This document shows positions 5,901 through 42,753 of a DNA stretch of 64,000 nt, in pieces. The notes under the pieces are model-generated. The model had not been told where the DNA came from and searched no databases. It worked only from the letters and a program-made list of their open reading frames with translations. Position numbers and translations under genes: made by a program. Origin of the DNA: Kordiimonadales bacterium IMCC3096 (GTDB lineage: Bacteria > Pseudomonadota > Alphaproteobacteria > Minwuiales > Minwuiaceae); NCBI GenBank assembly GCA_016865035.1, contig CP018227.1:2881501-2945500 (forward strand). The letters are read 5' to 3'. Every line of letters starts with the position of its first letter. The first letter of the stretch is position 1.

Positions 5901-5952
5901 GCAGCCCCGGACCTGTCGCCGAGTCATTTCGTCGGTGCCGGGCCGGGGCTGC
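5901..5952. terminator. Hairpin between the isomerase gene and the phosphatase remnant
   Basis: A perfect 10-bp inverted repeat (GCAGCCCCGG at 5901-5910 and its complement at 5943-5952) is extended inside by CGCCGA pairing with TCGGTG. It lies directly after the isomerase stop and after the stop of the phosphatase-tail remnant read from the other strand. A shared bidirectional terminator is the natural reading. There is no T tract, so efficiency is uncertain. Confidence 0.6.
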
Positions 5953-5986
5953 AGCGTTTCAGGATGCGGTCGCGGAGCCGGCGCGG
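5924..5986 (-). pseudogene. Displaced 3' end of the low-molecular-weight phosphatase gene
   Basis: Read on the minus strand, this stretch encodes a tail RLRDRILKRCSPGPAPTK followed by TGA. It is nearly identical to the last residues of the intact phosphatase encoded at 10830-11276 (LRDRILKRFSPGPAPTV). No start codon or upstream domain is present. It lies next to the hairpin expected at the end of that gene. The simplest reading is that this is the original 3' end, cut off when the 4.9-kb acylation islet arrived. Tandem duplication is the alternative. Confidence 0.7.
5930..5980. repeat. Left copy of 51-bp direct repeat flanking the acylation islet
   Basis: This stretch matches 10836-10886 in the same orientation at 47 of 51 positions (mismatches at 5936, 5952, 5975 and 5979). 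The repeat covers the coding 3' end of the phosphatase gene. The spacing between copies is 4,906 bp and everything between belongs to the acylation operon. It resembles the footprint of recombination at a gene's 3' end. Confidence 0.85.
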
Positions 5987-6007
5987 ATCAGAGCTGTCAT
6001 CAGGTTC

Positions 6008-6169
6008 TCAGCGCGATGACCCGACGTCGAAATACAGGATCTGGTCTCCTGCGTAGTACCCGAGCAAGGCGATCACCGCGAACAGCATGAAAGAGTAGAT
6101 GAGCACCAAGGCAGGTGCGACTAGCCATTGCGGCATTAGCCGACCGATGGATCTGGACCAGGGTGTCAT
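6008..6169 (-). CDS. DltX-like membrane microprotein
   Basis: This 53-residue protein starts at an ATG whose last two bases are shared with the MBOAT stop codon (ATGA), so translation is probably coupled. It has a short basic N-terminus, one hydrophobic helix (residues about 16-37) and a short C-terminal tail that would be extracytoplasmic, ending I44-L45-Y46-F47-D48-V49-GSSR. Gram-positive DltX is a one-helix microprotein whose C-terminal tyrosine motif accepts the acyl group from the MBOAT DltB and passes it to DltD. Tyr46 would be the equivalent residue. The role is inferred from size, topology and operon position. Confidence 0.65.
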   Translation of the reverse strand: MTPWSRSIGRLMPQWLVAPALVLIYSFMLFAVIALLGYYAGDQILYFDVGSSR

Positions 6170-7248
6170 GGGGACATGTACTCTGCCAGGCGGGACAGGA
6201 CCGGGTGTGTGGCACTGAGCCAAAGGGCGGCGAAGGCCATTCCGATCACGGATACCAGACTTGTCGGCAGATTACCGGTCGGTATGCGGAAGGCAAGCTG
6301 GGTGATGGTGATACCCAGTCCCTGCCACAGACCCCACCCGAGCCAGTACAATGAGGTTTCGTGCCAGAGACCCATGGCCAGCATGGCCGCAAGTACTCCG
6401 GGATAGGCTGATCTGGTTGCAGCGGATACGGGTCGGAAGACGTAGTCGCGGCAAAAGCCGGTCAGTGTCATGTGCCAGCGATTCCAGAACTCGACCAGGT
6501 TCCTGGCGCGCCAGGGGGCGTTGAAGTTCTCCTCGATCCTCAGCCCCGTCATCAGCGACAGCCCGATCGCCAGCGAACTGAACCCGGCGAACGTGAGATA
6601 GAGGCTGATCCAGTCGATCGCTCCGACAATCCAGTCGCTCAGGAACACGGGGAGCGGCTCGAGCAGGGAGCGACACTCTCGCTCGATGCGGGTCATCAGC
6701 CAGGTTCCGATCACAACCGCCTGAAACGCTCCCCACAACGCGCGCTCGGCGCCCGTGAAGAGTTCCGCGGCATTCTTCCGGCGACGGGAGAGCTCGCGCT
6801 GGAAGTTCTGGAACCGATGGATCGGGCCGGCTGCCAGTACCGGCAGGAACAACTGGTACCGCATGTAGTCCGTCAAGCCGGGCCGGGTCAGAGTCCCCAT
6901 CCACCAGTCCGACAGGACATGGACATGACGCAGGGTGAAATAGGCGGCTCCGATCCAGAGGTATCCGGGAAGGTCACGCAACCAGACGAGCGCCGCAACA
7001 TGCAGAAACACGGTCAGGCCGAAGAAGGCCCCCTTGCGACCGGACCGGTCACCCAGTTGCATCGACCAGATCGAGATGAGGGAGCCGGCCAGCAGCCAGA
7101 TGGCACTGCTCACGGAAAGGATGCACAGGCAGACAAGGGTCAGTACCGATATTGCCGACTGGACGTGCCGAGCGGGCAATGCCCAATAGCTGAGCACGCA
7201 CAGCAACGCGCCTGCGAGCAGTACGATGAATTCAGCGTTGGTCGGCAC
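6166..7248 (-). CDS. MBOAT family membrane-bound O-acyltransferase
   Basis: This polytopic membrane protein of 360 residues is somewhat shorter than typical DltB or AlgI. It has the MBOAT core: FWNRWHMTLTGFCRDYVFRP with His259, then GLWHETSLYWLGWGLWQG with His296 as the likely catalytic histidine. Upstream, AAGPIHRFQNF and ENFNAPWRARNLVEFW match the family's re-entrant regions. In dlt-type systems the MBOAT takes an acyl group from a carrier thioester in the cytoplasm and exports it. The start is GTG, overlapping the SGNH gene by 17 bp, and the stop overlaps the microprotein start. Base composition is lower in GC than neighbouring genes. Confidence 0.88.
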   Translation of the reverse strand: MPTNAEFIVLLAGALLCVLSYWALPARHVQSAISVLTLVCLCILSVSSAIWLLAGSLISIWSMQLGDRSGRKGAFFGLTVFLHVAALVWLRDLPGYLWIGAAYFTLRHVHVLSDWWMGTLTRPGLTDYMRYQLFLPVLAAGPIHRFQNFQRELSRRRKNAAELFTGAERALWGAFQAVVIGTWLMTRIERECRSLLEPLPVFLSDWIVGAIDWISLYLTFAGFSSLAIGLSLMTGLRIEENFNAPWRARNLVEFWNRWHMTLTGFCRDYVFRPVSAATRSAYPGVLAAMLAMGLWHETSLYWLGWGLWQGLGITITQLAFRIPTGNLPTSLVSVIGMAFAALWLSATHPVLSRLAEYMSP

Positions 7249-8068
7249 TTTGCCGCCAGTATCGTCGGAGTTCCGCCATGAACCTGGCTTGCCCAGAGAG
7301 GTTCAGGTGTCCTACTTCATCGGCAAACAGCGCGTCGGGCCACGCGGCATCTGCCAGCATTGCAGTGGCATCCGGTGGTACCACGTAAGACGTGAGGTAA
7401 TGGTGCAGGGGAATCCCCAGCTCCTGCGCGATTTCCTGCAGCCGTTGCCGATGCCGGGGCGGTTCGAAGAAGACCAGATCGATATTCTGCCTTGCCGCGA
7501 CTTCTGTCAGCGAGGCCAGGGCTTCCTTGTGCTCATTGCCCGAAGACCGGAGCGCCGTGTTCCTTTGCCAGCGCACGACGCCATCCCAGCTGCCCCGGAA
7601 TGCGGGATAATCGACGGAAGTCCCGTTGCCGTCCAATGCCACGGAGATCGCCTCGCGGAGATGCTCGGTGAATGCGTCGGACCAGTCACCAAGCGCGGCA
7701 ACCCAGCCCGGCAGATAGTCCGGACGGTTCACACGCGGCGGATCAGAATAGGCAAAGGCATTGAGTTCAATCAGGATGACCCTGGCACCCTCATCGATGG
7801 CTTTCTGGCTCAGGGCCATCGTTTCAGAAGCAGATATGGCCGGAACAAACCAGACGACATGACGGCGGTTGTCGCCCAGCAATCCCTCCTGCACCTGATC
7901 CTGCTGTATGGCGGCAGCACTGAGCGACGACCCGATCACGACGATCGGCGTTTCGGCCTCCAGAGCGTGCACCTCCGTAACGGGCTGCCAGTTCCAGATC
8001 ATCATGATCGACCCGACTGTCAGCAGGAGCACGACAGCCCATACTGATGCGAAGATGCGTGGCGTCAC
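7232..8068 (-). CDS. SGNH-like envelope acyltransferase (DltD/AlgJ type)
   Basis: The 278-residue product has an N-terminal signal anchor (about residues 8-26) and an extracytoplasmic domain. It shows a nucleophile motif GSSLS at 46-50 and a late D-E-V-G-H-L-N segment at 250-256 that could supply the acid and His254 of the triad. Proteins of this type receive the acyl group on serine and transfer it to a polymer (teichoic acid for DltD, alginate for AlgJ). The GTG start overlaps the ligase stop as GTGA. Its place between ligase and MBOAT supports a DltD-like role; the acceptor polymer is unknown. Confidence 0.75.
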   Translation of the reverse strand: MTPRIFASVWAVVLLLTVGSIMMIWNWQPVTEVHALEAETPIVVIGSSLSAAAIQQDQVQEGLLGDNRRHVVWFVPAISASETMALSQKAIDEGARVILIELNAFAYSDPPRVNRPDYLPGWVAALGDWSDAFTEHLREAISVALDGNGTSVDYPAFRGSWDGVVRWQRNTALRSSGNEHKEALASLTEVAARQNIDLVFFEPPRHRQRLQEIAQELGIPLHHYLTSYVVPPDATAMLADAAWPDALFADEVGHLNLSGQARFMAELRRYWRQSADQR

Positions 8069-9858
8069 CGCTGGGCTTCCTCAACAGTCCTGACCAGGCT
8101 GCCGATATCGCGGATCGCCGCGATCTGCGGGGTCGCGATCCGGACGTCCAGGGCGTCTTCGACGGCCAGGATCAGGTTGAGATGCGTGAAGCTGTCCCAT
8201 CCTTCAATGCTGTCGGGTGAGGATGCGTAGGTCAGCGACGTCCTGTCGACATGGAAGACACTGCTGGCGATTTCGATGATCCTTTCGCCCATCCCACTGT
8301 TGCCGGTGTTGGCGATCTTCGGTTCCTGAATCCGTTTCGTCAGGCAGGCAGCCAGAGCCTGTCGGTCGACCTTTCCGGACTGCGTGCGAGGCATCGTCTC
8401 GATCTGCATGATCCGCTTCGGCATCTTCAGCGGTTCCAGGTATCCACGGCAATGCGTGGTCAGGGAGGCCTTGCTGACCGGAACGTTCAGAACGACTGCG
8501 GAGACCGCAATCTGCTCGAATTCCGGATCAGGCAGCCCGACTGTAGCAGCTTCCAGCACCGCCGGATGACGGAGCAAGGCTTCGTCCACTTCGTCAGGCA
8601 GGATGGTCATGCCACCCTGATTGATGACGCTCTTCAGACGGCCCAGGAAATCGAAGGATCCGTCCGCCCGCCGACGAACCAGATCTCCCGTGCGCATCCA
8701 TCCGTCCTGCAGATGGGTCTCGCGGGTTCGTTCAGGGTTCCGCCAGTAGCCCTCGCAGATATTGGGACCCTTGAGCTGCAACTCGCCTTCGTCCGCCTCG
8801 GCATCCCCGAGCGGTTGACCATTGCCGTTGCCCAGCCGCGCTTCGCAATCCACGGGATGGCCGATCGACCCCCAGGCACCGAATGCTGCCCCCTTGCCGG
8901 CATAGAGGGCGTTGGCGACCGTCTCGGTCATCCCGTAGACGTTCCAGACGTTTGTGCCGAATCCGGTTTCGAATGCTTTCCAGACGGGTTCTGGCAGGAT
9001 TCCGCCGGTGGAAATCACGCCTCTGAATCCTGCTGAGTCGAAATAGTCCCGATGCTCTGCCAGGCGCTCGATCAGGGTCAGCATCGTGGGATTGCCGATC
9101 AGATGAGTTGCGCCGCTGGAGCGGATGAAATTCAGCCAGGGTTCCATATCGGAAATCTGGAACGGGCCCGGACGAACCAGCGCCGCACCACTCCAGGCAG
9201 CGAGCAGTGGGCCCTGAACCAGCCCGTCGGTATGGGCCAGGGGCGTGGCATTGAAGATGCGGCTCTGCGTGTCATATCCGAAAAGGCGACACAGGGTCTC
9301 CAGATGGCTGAACAGATTGCCATGGGTGATCTGGACGCCATTCGGTCGGTCCGTGGTGCCCGACGTGAAGAGGATATAGGCCAACTGGTCCGGCGCGTGG
9401 TCAGCACAATGCGGTGCTCGAACCCGGCTCGCGGGCGCCTTGCGGCGCAACAGTTTCCTGATCGTGCCGGCTTGCCCGCCACTGCCGGAGGGGGCGTCGA
9501 GAACATGCCGGGGGCAGTCATGACCACAGTCCACCGCGTCGTCGGAAATCAGCAGACTGGCTTCGGTGGACCTGGCAACGGCTTCGATGCGGGTGAGGCG
9601 ACTTTCCGGGGAAAGCATCACGGGCACGAGACCATCGAGCAAAGCTGCAAGAAAGCCGGCGCTGGCCGTGAAGTCGTCCTTCACAATGATCAGTACGCGG
9701 TCTCCTGACGTCAGACCGTATCCGTCGAAGATGCCGCAACAGGTCTCGATCATGGACATCAACTGACGACAGGACCTTGATCCGTCCCGAACGGCCAGGA
9801 AGTCGCCCCGGCCCTTGCGCTCCAGCTGGAGCCAGAGTTTCCGCAGGTCGTTGCTCAC
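8065..9858 (-). CDS. AMP-dependent acyl ligase fused to an acyl carrier domain (DltA-DltC-like)
   Basis: This 597-residue ANL-superfamily enzyme has the phosphate-binding loop LFTSGTTDRPNG, the GMTETVANALYAG segment, the TGDLVRR hinge region and the C-terminal PRTQSGKVDRQAL lysine motif. The last ~80 residues are a carrier domain with DSIEGWDSFTHLNLI, where Ser556 would carry phosphopantetheine. It should adenylate a carboxylic or amino acid and load it on its own carrier. The GTG at 9858 was chosen because it overlaps the upstream stop as GTGA and follows GAGGA; sequence further upstream in frame is not coding. A ligase–carrier fusion replaces the separate DltA and DltC proteins. Confidence 0.87.
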   Translation of the reverse strand: MSNDLRKLWLQLERKGRGDFLAVRDGSRSCRQLMSMIETCCGIFDGYGLTSGDRVLIIVKDDFTASAGFLAALLDGLVPVMLSPESRLTRIEAVARSTEASLLISDDAVDCGHDCPRHVLDAPSGSGGQAGTIRKLLRRKAPASRVRAPHCADHAPDQLAYILFTSGTTDRPNGVQITHGNLFSHLETLCRLFGYDTQSRIFNATPLAHTDGLVQGPLLAAWSGAALVRPGPFQISDMEPWLNFIRSSGATHLIGNPTMLTLIERLAEHRDYFDSAGFRGVISTGGILPEPVWKAFETGFGTNVWNVYGMTETVANALYAGKGAAFGAWGSIGHPVDCEARLGNGNGQPLGDAEADEGELQLKGPNICEGYWRNPERTRETHLQDGWMRTGDLVRRRADGSFDFLGRLKSVINQGGMTILPDEVDEALLRHPAVLEAATVGLPDPEFEQIAVSAVVLNVPVSKASLTTHCRGYLEPLKMPKRIMQIETMPRTQSGKVDRQALAACLTKRIQEPKIANTGNSGMGERIIEIASSVFHVDRTSLTYASSPDSIEGWDSFTHLNLILAVEDALDVRIATPQIAAIRDIGSLVRTVEEAQR

Positions 9859-10505
9859 TCGTCCTCGCCCCGGGAAATGGCCAGGGCACCCGATCCGCCC
9901 CTGATCGTGCGAGCCGGTGAACCGGCGGCGATGCTGCCCGCCGGCAAGGCGCGGCGGACAATCGCGCCGGCCGCGATGACACAGTTGTCGCCTATCCGGA
10001 CGTTCGGCAGGATCACTGCGCCGGCGCCGATGATCACGTCCTGCCCGACATGGACATTGCCCGCCAGCACGGCACCCGGGCCGATGCTCGTGTATTCGCC
10101 GATGATGCAGTGATGACCGACAGACGCTGAGCGGTTGATCAGCACACCCTCGCCGACCAGGGTCACAGCTCCAATGACGGCACCAGCATTGATGTAGCAC
10201 CCCGGATAGATGCGCGTGGTGCTGGCGACAATCGCCGAAGGATCGATCAGGGCATCAGCAAGCGTCAGGCCCATGGCCAGGGCAGATTGGGTCAGCGCGC
10301 GCCTGCGGCTCGGGGCGAAGGCGCAGGGTATGAACCTGTCGCCGTGTTCTTCCGCCAGATAGTCGTCCCTGGAAATGACACGGTCCCGGCGTGTCACCCG
10401 TGATGGCCCGCCGGTGTTCACTGCCGCACGGATTGTCAGTCCGGCGCGCAGACAGCTTTCTTCCAGCTCGACAACGATCGGAGATCTGACGCCAAAGAGA
10501 ATCAC
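9855..10505 (-). CDS. NeuD/PglD-like left-handed beta-helix acyltransferase
   Basis: The N-terminal ~85 residues form the small Rossmann-like part of the PglD/NeuD family. From about residue 88 on there are hexapeptide repeats (IDPSAIV, INAGAVIGA, IGEYTSIGPGAV, IGAGAVILPNV, IGDNCVIAAGAIV). The likely catalytic histidines are in SVGHHCIIG. Such enzymes acetylate amino or hydroxyl groups of sugars. The start overlaps the upstream 90-residue gene as ATGA and the stop overlaps the ligase start. It may modify a sugar or precursor used by the acylation pathway; that link is inferred from context only. Confidence 0.8.
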   Translation of the reverse strand: MILFGVRSPIVVELEESCLRAGLTIRAAVNTGGPSRVTRRDRVISRDDYLAEEHGDRFIPCAFAPSRRRALTQSALAMGLTLADALIDPSAIVASTTRIYPGCYINAGAVIGAVTLVGEGVLINRSASVGHHCIIGEYTSIGPGAVLAGNVHVGQDVIIGAGAVILPNVRIGDNCVIAAGAIVRRALPAGSIAAGSPARTIRGGSGALAISRGEDE

Positions 10506-10774
10506 AGGCTGCCCCTCAACAGACTGACTATGGTCGATGCAACCTCGGCCAAGTCGGCTTTCCCCAGATGATTCCTGCGTTCAACGCCGTTCATTGTCGA
10601 ACGGGCTTCGTCCCGGAGCCAGTGACTGTAGGGTCCGGCAGGCGACCGTACAAACGACCTGACGCTGTCGCGTTGCTGTTCCTGCCCGATTTTCTGCCAT
10701 CTTCGCAAGTCGCGATCAATCTTCAAGGAAACGGAATTCCAGATTCGCTTTCGGTCTTCGGGCGCGCCACTCAA
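10502..10774 (-). CDS. Small protein of unknown function opening the acylation operon
   Basis: I do not recognise this 90-residue, arginine-rich, soluble-looking protein (middle part WLRDEARSTMNGVERRNHLG, C-terminal ADLAEVASTIVSLLRGSL). The only upstream start is TTG at 10774, preceded by AGAGGGGG; a stop codon lies in frame 12 codons earlier. Its TGA overlaps the ATG of the PglD-like gene, which argues that it is translated. It could also be the shortened tail of a longer gene truncated when the islet formed. Base composition is lower in GC than the surrounding chromosome. Confidence 0.5.
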   Translation of the reverse strand: MSGAPEDRKRIWNSVSLKIDRDLRRWQKIGQEQQRDSVRSFVRSPAGPYSHWLRDEARSTMNGVERRNHLGKADLAEVASTIVSLLRGSL

Positions 10775-10813
10775 ACCCCCTCTGGTCCGATCGGTCAGCA
10801 GATCGCCTGTTCA

Positions 10814-10823
10814 TTTCCGGAAA
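10814..10823. promoter_or_regulatory. Palindrome TTTCCGGAAA ahead of the acylation operon
   Basis: A perfect 10-bp palindrome lies in the 55-bp gap between the phosphatase stop and the first gene of the islet operon, where a promoter or operator for that operon should be. I cannot define -10 and -35 boxes with confidence. Confidence 0.25.
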
Positions 10824-10829
10824 CGGGGG

Positions 10830-11276
10830 TCACACCGTCGGGGCCGGGCCGGGGCTGAAGCGTTTCAGGATGCGGTCGCGAAGCTGGTCGCGGACCTGGC
10901 GCCAGGATTCCAGGCGGCGTTCGCGGCTGCCTTCGGTCAGGGACGGGTCCATGGTGGGCCAGTATTCCACGTCGCAGGCCATGGTGCGGGTCAGCTCGAT
11001 GGCCTTGTGCTGTGCCTCCGGCGAGAGCGTGATGATGACGTCGAACGAGGAGTCCTCCAGGTCGTCGAAGCTCTTTGAATTGTGCCGGCTGACGTCGATC
11101 CCGAGTTCGTCCATGACGGTGATCGAGAAGCCGTCCACATCGCGGGACCGGACCCCGCAGGAATCCACATAGACCGCGTGACCCAGCAGCTGTTTCATCA
11201 GCCCCTCCGCCATCGGGGACCGGACACTGTTCTCGGTGCAGCAGAACAGCACAGCACCGGGAAGGTCACGTGGCAT
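10830..11276 (-). CDS. Low-molecular-weight phosphotyrosine phosphatase family protein
   Basis: This 148-residue protein has the C-x5-R loop CTENSVRS (Cys13, Arg19) near the N-terminus and a DP motif (MDPSLTEGS) near residue 110 for the general acid. The fold is shared by tyrosine phosphatases and arsenate reductases. Its location after UPF0262 and hisD is conserved in alphaproteobacteria, where it is usually annotated as a small phosphatase. It starts 4 bp after UPF0262. Its last ~17 codons lie in the direct repeat duplicated at 5930-5980, so the current 3' end may have been supplied by the incoming islet. Confidence 0.88.
   Translation of the reverse strand: MPRDLPGAVLFCCTENSVRSPMAEGLMKQLLGHAVYVDSCGVRSRDVDGFSITVMDELGIDVSRHNSKSFDDLEDSSFDVIITLSPEAQHKAIELTRTMACDVEYWPTMDPSLTEGSRERRLESWRQVRDQLRDRILKRFSPGPAPTV
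10836..10886. repeat. Right copy of 51-bp direct repeat flanking the acylation islet
   Basis: This is the same sequence as 5930-5980 with four substitutions, in direct orientation. Here it forms the functional 3' end of the phosphatase gene. Unlike the left copy it has no hairpin partner downstream, suggesting that this copy is the newer end. Confidence 0.85.
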
Positions 11277-40020: not shown

Positions 40021-40416
40021 TCCGCAGCCGGTCTTTCGGCCAGGTGTCCGGCTTTCGGCCCGTTCAACCTGCGAACTGTCCGGAATCGGGACGGCTCAGT
40101 GCGCCCTGTCACACTGTCTTGCCGCTTTTTGCCGGTGTTTCAGCCCGTTTTGCCGAGTCTGGCATAACGGTTGCTTAATACTTCGCAAAGGCATCGGATC
40201 AGGCACGGTATCTGGTGTGGCGGCGTTCCCGCGTAGCTACATGTTGTGTGAGATTGGTAACGAGCTGCAAATTGCAAACTTCTCGGTAACGTAGTCTTGC
40301 GCTCAGATATCAGAATGATCCGGTAAGGTTCTGAAGGAATTGTGAATTCAGGTCTATGATCGTAGTTTGTGATTCGTTTTCAGGCCGGACTCGTGGAACC
40401 GAGACGGACAGGCAAT
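40021..40416. other. Intergenic region upstream of the BY-kinase gene
   Basis: This 396-bp gap has lower GC than the flanking genes. It contains a weak hairpin (AGCCGG at 40026-40031 with CCGGCT at 40048-40053) that might end the flagellar transcript, and the sigma-54-like site listed separately. CGGTAAC-like motifs recur near 40255 and 40285. I see no further gene. Confidence 0.5.
40160..40175 (+). promoter_or_regulatory. Sigma-54-type promoter candidate upstream of the BY-kinase gene
   Basis: TGGCATAACGGTTGCT has the GG-N10-GC spacing and matches the RpoN consensus at all but one position, including the TTGC core. It would give a leader of roughly 230 bases before the kinase start. RpoN control would tie polysaccharide synthesis to the flagellar programme. 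Confidence 0.55.
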
Positions 40417-42753
40417 ATGGCAAGCGTGAGTTTTCTGCAGCAGGCACAGCACATGGATGATTCCTCGGAACTGCCGCCCTTCATGGCGCAGTCGCAGGGC
40501 GATCAGTCGCTGATCAGCTTTCGCCATGTGTTTGGTGTGGTCTGGCGGCGGAAGCTGATCATCCTCGCCATCGTGCTGTTCGTGACGGCCCTCGCATATT
40601 ACTGGGTCAAGACCCGCACCCCGCTGTATGTCGCCACCGCCGAGGTCGAGATCGGCATCCAGGACCAGCGCGTCGTCAACATTCAGGACGTTTTGCAGCA
40701 GGGGCAGCAGGACTTCTATTTCAACGAGACCCAGGCGGCGATCATCTCCTCCACCTTCGCGGCGGAGGAAGTCGCCAAGCGCATGGGGCTGTTCGAGGAT
40801 CCCTCGGCGCTCTGGTGGGGTGACCAGGACAAGGCTTCCCTGTTCGACGGCGTCAAGGCTGCCGTGAAGAGTGTTCTGCCCGACCCGGTGGTCGAAGGCG
40901 TGCGCGGTGCGCTGAACACCCTGCGCGGCGGTTCTCAGGAGAGCCCGCAACTCTCGGTTCTGGAGAGCATGACGCCGGAGGAGCGCGCGACGTTCGAGAA
41001 GCAGGCGGTGCTGAAGGGTCTGCTCGGCAACCTGGGCGTTGATCCGTCGGAGCGCGCACGCACCATCTCCATCAGTTTCGTGTCCGACAAGCCGGGATTT
41101 GCCCGCGAGATCGCCAATGCCTTCGCGCAGGTCTATGTCGACTCGACCCGGACCGAGAAGAGCGAAGCGACGTCGAATGCATCCAGTTTTCTCGGCAATG
41201 AGGCCGAGCGCCTGAAGGCGGACTATCTGGACTCCGAACAGGCACTGGAGAAGTTCCGCCGCGACCATGGCGTTGTCGATTATCGCAATCAGACCACGCT
41301 GTTGCAGGAACAGCTCGCGGAACTGAACCGCCAGCGTGTCGGTGCACGGGAACTTCAGGCCGAGGCGGAAGCACGTGTTGCCCAGGTCAAGCGGCTGCTG
41401 AACGAAGGTTCCGACGGCATCGAAAGCGTGACCGCAGTGCTGGACTCGACCCTGATCGTTCGTCTGCGGGAGCAGGAGGCGGAGGTGCTGCGCGAGATCG
41501 CGGAACTGCGCACCCAGCTTCGTGACCAGCATCCCCGGCTGCAGCTCAAGCGCGCCGAACTGGCTGACCTGCAGGTCGCCATCCGCTCCGAGATCACCAA
41601 GATCGTCATCGCTCTGGACAACAAGCTGGAGCTTTCGCGGGTGAAGGTGGAGAACCTGAACACGGAGATCGAGGCGCTGGCCTTCCAGGTCGCCGAACAG
41701 ACGGACTCCGAAGTGACCCTGCGGTCGCTGGAATCGGAGCGCAATGCAGCCAAGCAGCTCTATGACACCATCCTCAGCCGCTTCAAGGAAGTCGACCTGC
41801 AGGAGCGCAGCCCCCAGCAGGCGAGTGCCCGCGTGATCAACAGCGCCGGCACCCCGCTGGAGCCGAGCTTCCCGCGCCGCAACCTGACGATCGCCGCCGC
41901 TCTGGTCGGATCGGCCATCCTGGGTGTGCTGGTGGTCTTCCTGATCGAATACATGGATACCGGCTTCCGCTCCCTGCAGCAGTTGCAGCAGCTCGCCTAT
42001 GTCCCGGCCCTGGGTCTGGTGCCGCGCCTGTCGATGCTCGACAGCCGCCGCTCGACGCCGGAGGATTTCGTGATCGACGAGCCGAATTCGCTCTATTCGG
42101 AAGCGATACGAACGATCCGAACGTCGCTGATGCTGTCCAGCATCGACCAGCGTCCGCGCTCCGTCATGTTCACCTCTTCCGTACCGGCGGAGGGCAAGAC
42201 CGCCACCGCGGTGTCCGTTGCCCGGGCGTCGGCGAAGGCGGGGCAGCGCACCATCCTGATCGACTGCGACCTGCGCAAGCCGTCAGTGAATGAGTCGCTT
42301 GGTGTGCCGAACGGCAAGGGTGTGGCCGAGATCCTGACCGGCGCGGCGGAGATCGACGACGCGGTCGAGATCGATCTGAAATCTGGCCTGCACTACATCA
42401 CCGCCGGTGCCAAGGTTCCGAACCCGCCGGACGCCCTCGGTTCCAATGCCATGCGTCAGCTGATCGAGGAACTGAGCCGTCGCTATGACCTGGTCATCCT
42501 CGATACTCCTCCGGTGCTGCCGGTCTCCGACGCTCTTGTCCTGCTCCGTCATGTCGACAAGTCGGTCTTCCTCGTCCGCTGGGGCTCGACCCGGCGGGAG
42601 GCCGTGCTGGCCGGTATTCGTCAGGTGCAGGAAGCCAATGGCGATCTCGCCGGCGTTGCCATGACGCGGGTCGATATTCGCCGCCATCAGAAGTACAACT
42701 ACAGTGACTCCTATTATTACTACCGGGGTTACGGAAAGTACTATGGCACGTAA
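40417..42753 (+). CDS. Wzz-type polysaccharide co-polymerase/BY-kinase
   Basis: This ~778-residue inner-membrane protein controls exopolysaccharide export. The Wzz part has a first membrane helix (about 43-65), a long periplasmic coiled coil and a PxxP-containing second helix near residue 490. The cytoplasmic bacterial tyrosine kinase domain has Walker A (SSVPAEGKTATAVSVA), Walker A' (TILIDCDLRKPSV) and Walker B (LVILDTPPVLPVSDAL). The C-terminus is tyrosine-rich (YNYSDSYYYYRGYGKYYGT), the usual autophosphorylation cluster. The start is uncertain; 40417 gives MASVSFLQQ. No glycosyltransferase or polymerase genes adjoin it. Confidence 0.88.
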   Translation: MASVSFLQQAQHMDDSSELPPFMAQSQGDQSLISFRHVFGVVWRRKLIILAIVLFVTALAYYWVKTRTPLYVATAEVEIGIQDQRVVNIQDVLQQGQQDFYFNETQAAIISSTFAAEEVAKRMGLFEDPSALWWGDQDKASLFDGVKAAVKSVLPDPVVEGVRGALNTLRGGSQESPQLSVLESMTPEERATFEKQAVLKGLLGNLGVDPSERARTISISFVSDKPGFAREIANAFAQVYVDSTRTEKSEATSNASSFLGNEAERLKADYLDSEQALEKFRRDHGVVDYRNQTTLLQEQLAELNRQRVGARELQAEAEARVAQVKRLLNEGSDGIESVTAVLDSTLIVRLREQEAEVLREIAELRTQLRDQHPRLQLKRAELADLQVAIRSEITKIVIALDNKLELSRVKVENLNTEIEALAFQVAEQTDSEVTLRSLESERNAAKQLYDTILSRFKEVDLQERSPQQASARVINSAGTPLEPSFPRRNLTIAAALVGSAILGVLVVFLIEYMDTGFRSLQQLQQLAYVPALGLVPRLSMLDSRRSTPEDFVIDEPNSLYSEAIRTIRTSLMLSSIDQRPRSVMFTSSVPAEGKTATAVSVARASAKAGQRTILIDCDLRKPSVNESLGVPNGKGVAEILTGAAEIDDAVEIDLKSGLHYITAGAKVPNPPDALGSNAMRQLIEELSRRYDLVILDTPPVLPVSDALVLLRHVDKSVFLVRWGSTRREAVLAGIRQVQEANGDLAGVAMTRVDIRRHQKYNYSDSYYYYRGYGKYYGT

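Follow-up and report, generated by a model that had tools for sequence, protein, structure and literature searches.

A cassette of five minus-strand genes in a window of 64,000 nucleotides from Kordiimonadales bacterium IMCC3096 (contig CP018227.1, positions 2,881,501 to 2,945,500; the window is the whole stretch analysed, and positions are counted from its first letter) appears to be an acquired envelope-acylation cassette that works in the manner of the Dlt system with an activating enzyme of its own, a reading to which we assign a probability of about 0.66. The five products are a NeuD-type acyltransferase, an AMP-forming ligase fused to a carrier domain, an SGNH-like protein, a short MBOAT and a one-helix microprotein. 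A preliminary description, made from the sequence alone, had placed six overlapping genes here, and all six open reading frames (ORFs) are present on the minus strand with successive overlaps of 4, 4, 4, 17 and 4 nt. That description had taken positions 5930-10886 as a plain operon, however, and missed the 59-nt repeat at both ends; an empty site in another genome (G001) shows the cassette to be an insertion. The features are:

9855-10505, minus strand: NeuD/PglD-type hexapeptide-repeat acyltransferase, 216 amino acids (aa), GTG start, present in all three closest cassettes
8065-9858, minus strand: AMP-forming ligase with C-terminal carrier domain, 597 aa, GTG start, predicted phosphopantetheine (Ppant) serine Ser556 in GWDSF
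7232-8068, minus strand: SGNH-like membrane-anchored putative acyltransferase, 278 aa, GTG start, assigned from motif conservation and sub-threshold GDSL matches of two homologs
6166-7248, minus strand: short DltB-like MBOAT, 360 aa, GTG start, His259 and His296 invariant, without a C-terminal FXYXXF
6008-6169, minus strand: DltX-like one-helix microprotein, 53 aa, ATG start, C-terminus ILYFDVGSSR
10502-10774, minus strand: ORF of 90 aa, TTG start, not kept with the cassette
10829-10887, unstranded: flanking direct repeat, right copy, 59 nt, equal to the 3' end of the low-molecular-weight (LMW) phosphatase/ArsC-like gene
5923-5981, unstranded: flanking direct repeat, left copy, repeating part of the 3' end of the LMW phosphatase gene
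10830-11276, minus strand: LMW phosphatase/ArsC-like gene, flanking and outside the pathway, its 3' end being the insertion site

The ligase-carrier, SGNH-like, MBOAT and microprotein genes occur in this same order in four places: the window, genome G068, a Sulfitobacter pontiacus plasmid and genome G407. In the first three of these the block is preceded by NeuD, and G068 is the only other sampled genome of the window's class with the five-gene order, while G407 belongs to another class. The six-gene order proposed in the preliminary description therefore recurs for five genes in G068 and Sulfitobacter and for four in G407, but not for the 90-residue protein. In G407, where the block is without NeuD, the order is another ligase, ligase-carrier, SGNH-like protein, MBOAT, microprotein and a radical SAM/SPASM protein; the second AMP ligase, upstream of the block, has no recognised carrier (L090, 4246-5613), and the radical SAM/SPASM gene lies downstream at 9615-10568. 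A sister system from the same genus, in G001 and G002 (L031, L032), is arranged as SGNH protein, microprotein, ligase-carrier, sulfotransferase and MBOAT, so that the sulfotransferase gene stands between those for the ligase-carrier and the MBOAT. A second kind of proteobacterial Dlt-like cluster, with a separate carrier and a DltA-type ligase, is found in G456 (L091, 9937-16412), where the order is carrier, PLP decarboxylase-family enzyme, sulfotransferase, ligase, SGNH protein, microprotein and MBOAT; its decarboxylase-like gene belongs to the Orn/DAP/Arg decarboxylase family. One of the seven systems with a short MBOAT is that of G456, in which ligase and carrier are separate proteins. The remaining six have fused ligases, which amount to about five independent cases given that G001 and G002 are near-identical. 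The G407, G456 and Sulfitobacter systems came up as new matches and were not members of the query alignments that found them.

The cassette and its relatives are rare and patchy in distribution. The genome of the window (G000) was itself a member of the query profiles for the SGNH-like protein, the MBOAT and the ligase. When 385 genomes of the class were searched with the SGNH-like protein, one convincing relative was obtained, in G068 (E 2e-16); matches in G353, G121 and G282 (E 0.006-0.01) were set aside as chance, there being no MBOAT at E 1e-3 within the surrounding 9-17 kb. An SGNH profile returned only G000 from 398 phylum-sample genomes and only G068 from 61 genomes around G068, both of them profile members. 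A short-MBOAT profile built from the window, G068 and G002 yielded no fourth member in the 385 class genomes (members scored 1e-165 or better, the next match 1e-49), and a four-member version added G407 (1e-102) and G456 (1e-64) to G000 in the 398 phylum genomes; among 100 genomes around G407 the short-MBOAT profile matched G407 alone (1e-55). With the window ligase as query against 72,556 plasmids, one full-length relative was seen among the best 25 of 728 records, on S. pontiacus S1704 plasmid NZ_CP049347 (40.7% identity over 99%), and an MBOAT gene lies beside it. The same plasmid was the sole record matched by the G001 ligase at 1e-50 and the sole full-length one of nine matched by the G407 ligase at 1e-40. 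A six-ligase profile run over 152 class genomes, with the best 8 candidates scored per genome, gave no fused ligase besides the profile members G068 and G000 (1e-275 or better, the next match 1e-86); G002 was absent from these matches, presumably because it was not drawn. A ligase search of genome contigs gave two matches, both spanning the carrier part only. The concern that relatives of the ligase-carrier might occur mainly without MBOAT and SGNH partners is not borne out within the plasmids and class genomes searched with the ligase: the only relative found through the ligase itself, that on the Sulfitobacter plasmid, has both.

The window MBOAT matches PF03062 (3e-15), and its sole NCBIfam match is to TIGR04091, the DltB family (6e-42), at 144.3 bits where 375 are needed; compared with solved structures, the MBOAT profile finds DltB alone at E up to 1 (best 1e-42). 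His259 and His296 are invariant in all five aligned sequences, one of which is a DltB. PatA has been shown experimentally to acetylate the tyrosine of its own C-terminal FXYXXF motif, and DltX bears this motif for DltB (PMC12148441). We found FXYXXF at the C-terminus of 40 of 43 distinct long MBOATs, these being the distinct best ORFs from 44 loci of the sampled genomes, in none of the seven short proteobacterial MBOATs, and in none of three DltB proteins; the three long proteins that lack it are L019, which is truncated and was counted as a miss, L040, which has NLYFQF, and L046. The window MBOAT ends in SRLAEYMSP. In turn, every one of the seven short-MBOAT clusters encodes a microprotein of 47-54 aa that has a tyrosine close to the C-terminus, the transmembrane helix having been judged by eye from the sequence. 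The motif is exact in G001 and G002 (FIYAGF) and in G456 (FRYAGF), G407 has FIYWDN, and the ends are derived in the window, in G068 (NPYLDLHRTK) and in Sulfitobacter (IIYIDLQEAQ); the last three microproteins also share an N-terminal MTP and a YxD near the end. The tyrosine is the only motif residue common to all seven. The short MBOATs are without a shuttle motif of their own, and the cluster microprotein supplies the tyrosine. An aspartate two residues after the shuttle tyrosine is also seen within the canonical motif, in the long MBOATs L014, L020 and L021, which end in FIYFDF or FLYWDF.

A tree of 24 MBOATs, comprising 14 of 42 long proteins (every third, with L019 omitted) and 10 short ones, resolves three groups: the long proteins, DltB, and the proteobacterial microprotein-associated MBOATs (85/81, rising to 97/95 for the six without G456). 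The window MBOAT falls outside the DltB clade.

The ligase differs from its Dlt counterpart. Its ligase half matches PF00501 (4e-50) and PF13193 (3e-14). In the window protein the carrier domain stays below the threshold (PF00550, E 0.089, 13.5 versus 20.8 bits), and in an alignment of five fused ligases and one DltA without carrier columns, five of the six sequences match PF00550 at E up to 1, the best at 4e-6. Together with G553-W554-D555-S556, which is invariant in all six fused ligases, this bears out the earlier placement of ligase and carrier in one protein, the carrier forming the C-terminal domain. The longest ORF of this frame extends further upstream than the GTG start of the 597-aa form. 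In a tree from which carrier domains had been removed, and for which 36 of 37 rows were used (L118, of 857 aa, was omitted), the six fused ligases form one clade (100/100), and DltA of L. helsingborgensis groups apart with the G456 ligase (98/87). The sequence HxDGxxxGP stands at motif A4 in all six fused ligases, in none of 29 paralogs and in neither of two DltA-type proteins; 38 paralogs were found in this genome, and the 29 with loci given were examined. DltA Asp197 and Cys269, whose roles and numbers come from a review (PMC11253843) and were mapped here onto L. helsingborgensis DltA, correspond in MAFFT columns of the six fused ligases to T, G, A, S, S and N and to T or V, respectively. 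Because of this separate clade, the shared HxDGxxxGP and the apparent loss of both DltA residues, the acyl group is probably not D-alanine. The same review describes small aliphatic residues at the Asp position of hydroxy-acid A domains. In phmmer comparisons with solved structures, oxalate-CoA ligase comes first, and gramicidin synthetase, oxalyl-CoA synthetase and malonyl-CoA synthetase rank after it. The preliminary description is thus upheld in its central point, a Dlt-like acylation route with ligase and carrier in one protein, which the same-order block in four places and the C-terminal tyrosine of the microprotein make stronger than the sequence alone could; it needs correction in that the ligase belongs to another clade than DltA.

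On the Sulfitobacter plasmid, the stop of the microprotein is where a ketopantoate-reductase-like gene (PF02558, E 8e-6; L067, 17712-18815) begins. Its start is 17,712 in the longest ORF and 17,718 as annotated, and the microprotein ORF is missing from the plasmid gene table. This gene is possibly a hint at a hydroxy acid, which its product may make for the ligase.

The two other products are assigned with unequal certainty. The putative motif residues Ser48, Asn103, Asp250 and His254 are invariant in all three SGNH-like sequences, the other two being 29% and 20% identical to that of the window, and the homologs in G068 and G407 match PF13472 at 6e-4 and 3e-3, both below the cut-off. The SGNH assignment, the weakest made here, draws on motifs and weak matches. 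The NeuD-type enzyme matches PF00132 above the cut-off (6e-24) and TIGR03570 at 1.8e-40 over residues 43-199 only, with 138.7 bits against a cut-off of 160.8; His131 and His132 are invariant in all three sequences, and its gene is linked to that of the ligase in each of the three closest cassettes. The ORF lists for the G001 and G002 clusters show no NeuD.

On the proposed mechanism, the ligase half would adenylate a small carboxylic acid, probably one without a free alpha-amino group, and load it onto the Ppant arm of its own carrier; the domains are recognisable, and the substrate is our suggestion. The carrier would then dock on the short MBOAT, which would pass the acyl group across the membrane to the microprotein's C-terminal tyrosine, a chemistry modelled on DltX and PatA around parts that are present here. 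The membrane-anchored SGNH-like protein, whose motif is in place, would accept the acyl group on Ser48 and hand it to a glycan hydroxyl in the periplasm or at the surface. The conserved NeuD-type enzyme may act earlier, in the cytoplasm, perhaps with the acid destined for export as its substrate, perhaps with a sugar from which the acceptor is built, although this role is a guess. The likeliest acceptor would be a surface, perhaps sulfated, polysaccharide. Over the 35.7 kb read, the Sulfitobacter plasmid carries genes for glycosyltransferases, sulfotransferases, TviB, GDP-mannose 4,6-dehydratase and a flippase, and sulfotransferase genes accompany four of the six other systems, lying within the G001, G002 and G456 clusters and on this plasmid; the two remaining neighbourhoods were scanned by eye. 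In the window itself, a Wzz/GNVR/AAA_31 co-polymerase-like gene at 40369-42753 is the nearest recognised glycan-export gene.

Several observations weigh against this interpretation. The cassette sits in no glycan cluster, the glycan-export gene just mentioned being about 30 kb away. The window microprotein keeps the FXYXXF tyrosine and its hydrophobic neighbours, but both phenylalanines are lost and four extra residues follow the motif. For the SGNH-like protein there is no above-threshold family match, none of six PDB profile matches at E up to 10 is an SGNH protein, and hhalign against the G001 SGNH protein gives a probability of 0.4%; a single-sequence AlphaFold model of it has a pLDDT of 40. 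In addition, the phmmer alignment to the gramicidin-synthetase A domain sets Asp211, not Thr210, opposite the aspartate that binds the amino group, and ordinary acyl-CoA-ligase-like paralogs likewise have no DltA-type Asp. Because the paralogs lack this residue too and Asp211 aligns, the loss of Asp speaks against D-alanine more than it speaks for any one acid. Finally, searches with SGNH or MBOAT led to four of the six fused ligases (those of G068, G001, G002 and G407), whose linkage is therefore ascertained; it is for this reason that the Sulfitobacter and ligase-profile tests carry weight.

The cassette might instead be a diverged Dlt operon that places D-alanine or glycine on a surface polymer and confers resistance to cationic peptides. 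Gram-negative precedents are on record in Dickeya dltBAC (PMC3544676) and Bordetella dra (PMC4448142, PMC9410548), in proteobacterial G456 the ligase is of the DltA type, with SFD at A4, and is accompanied by a separate carrier and a PLP decarboxylase-family enzyme, and the invariant Asp211 could, on one alignment, bind an amino group. Nevertheless, we regard this explanation as unlikely: the clade of fused ligases is separate from DltA and G456, both DltA positions are replaced in all six, and oxalate-CoA ligase is the best structure match, with malonyl-CoA synthetase in the best ten, even if gramicidin-synthetase adenylation domains come second. A plain Dlt operon, considered separately, was rejected on the ligase clade, the A4 motif and the family cut-offs.

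A rather improbable arrangement is that the ligase-carrier feeds the NeuD-type enzyme, which would yield an N- or O-acylated sugar nucleotide, and that the MBOAT, SGNH-like protein and microprotein use another donor. Left-handed beta-helix enzymes such as LpxA and LpxD do take acyl groups from acyl-ACP, and the constant pairing of NeuD and ligase in the closest cassettes would be explained. In the G407 block, however, a second ligase rather than NeuD lies upstream, and in the G001 and G002 clusters NeuD was not seen. It is very improbable that the genes belong to a secondary-metabolite or lipid pathway in which the MBOAT and SGNH-like protein tailor a small molecule and not an envelope polymer. 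Fusions of ligase and carrier are common in biosynthetic clusters, and the radical SAM/SPASM protein and second ligase adjoining the G407 block would fit such a pathway. Yet inspection by eye of the neighbourhood ORF lists, most ORFs of which were not family-searched, revealed no polyketide synthase or condensation enzyme, and none was recognised in the annotation of the plasmid stretch either, where the context is glycan synthesis, export and sulfation.

The envelope-acylation reading resembles the Dlt system (dltXABCD; PMC12148441) in its AMP ligase, carrier, short DltB-kind MBOAT, one-helix microprotein with C-terminal tyrosine and SGNH-like extracytoplasmic protein. It departs from that system in a ligase of another clade with a fused carrier in place of a stand-alone DltC, in the apparent loss of DltA Asp197 and Cys269, in an MBOAT that misses the DltB cut-off and falls outside the clade of DltB, in a derived shuttle motif and in the additional NeuD-type enzyme; moreover, no teichoic acid is expected here. 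Dickeya dltBAC and Bordetella dra likewise consist of Dlt-type genes without teichoic acid (PMC3544676, PMC4448142, PMC9410548) and are Gram-negative precedents, but these are described as D-alanine systems, and the Dickeya DltA and DltC are separate genes, whereas the cassette ligase is fused and not of the DltA type. PatA/PatB, AlgIJ and WssHI (PMC12148441) share MBOAT- and SGNH-dependent acyl transfer via tyrosine to an envelope polymer, but their MBOAT bears the fused motif itself, and the paper names acyl-CoA as the evident donor and states that both a carrier and a DltX-like microprotein are absent. The sister system of G001 and G002 has a ligase-carrier of the same clade, an SGNH protein, an FIYAGF microprotein and a short MBOAT; it differs in gene order, in the added sulfotransferase and in that no NeuD was seen, and the G001 locus lies elsewhere in its genome and adjoins a UvrB-like gene.

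The acyl-tyrosine shuttle is a general route for acyl groups across bacterial membranes, and according to the Discussion of PMC12148441 the MBOAT-SGNH pathways other than Dlt have neither a carrier nor a DltX-like microprotein. The cassette and its relatives are versions with both in Proteobacteria. Since the activating enzyme comes from another ligase clade, evolution seems to have exchanged the donor side of the shuttle. This predicts that Gram-negative surface glycans bear an acyl modification of a new, carrier-borne kind, and the systems provide natural variants of the shuttle motif. We put forward, tentatively and at somewhat less than an even chance, a Gram-negative carrier-plus-microprotein pathway that exports a non-amino acyl group, for example a hydroxy acid, onto a surface polysaccharide. 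Its ligase would have been recruited separately from DltA, its tyrosine shuttle would be of a derived YxD form, and it would spread horizontally as a cassette, in breach of the published rule. Among the papers listed by full-text searches, no title or abstract opening describes a fused non-DltA ligase-carrier with MBOAT, SGNH protein and microprotein in Proteobacteria, although the primary Dlt mechanism paper may mention such a system.

The cassette was most likely acquired horizontally. The 59-nt direct repeats at its two ends are 88% identical, and in the same-genus genome G001 the site is empty: both flanks align with an overlap of about 60 nt, and there is a single repeat copy and no cassette. 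At the same spot the sister species G002 carries genes for a C5-methylase and an NgoMIV-type restriction enzyme instead (L082, 7307-9147), and the site after the LMW phosphatase gene is thus an insertion hotspot with other cargo there. Third-position GC ranges from 0.67 to 0.79 across the six ORFs, versus 0.82-0.88 in the flanking secA, prsA, phosphatase, UPF0262 and hisD genes. Against a foreign origin, the cassette's overall GC of 0.617, though low, is not extreme, as other 4.8-kb stretches of the window reach 0.601. No integrase was recognised within the cassette. Origin from a phage was rejected: 25 phage records match the ligase, and the best 10 of these 25 do so at 24-29% identity, two being annotated fadD_4 and the others unannotated.

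Neither Pfam nor NCBIfam gave a significant match for the 90-residue ORF, the SGNH-like protein or the microprotein, and Rfam at the gathering threshold found nothing in the window. A role in defence was rejected after PADLOC matched none of the six proteins. The 90-residue protein, which the preliminary description had counted in the unit, was likewise rejected as a cassette member: it is not found upstream of NeuD in G068 or Sulfitobacter and has no match on the plasmids. Among 60 genomes this ORF has four faint matches (E 0.001-0.008). One of these, in G033 (L125, 1438-2216), is to an ORF that immediately precedes a PIN-domain ORF, with 34% identity over 68 aa, and the window ORF may be an orphan antitoxin relic.

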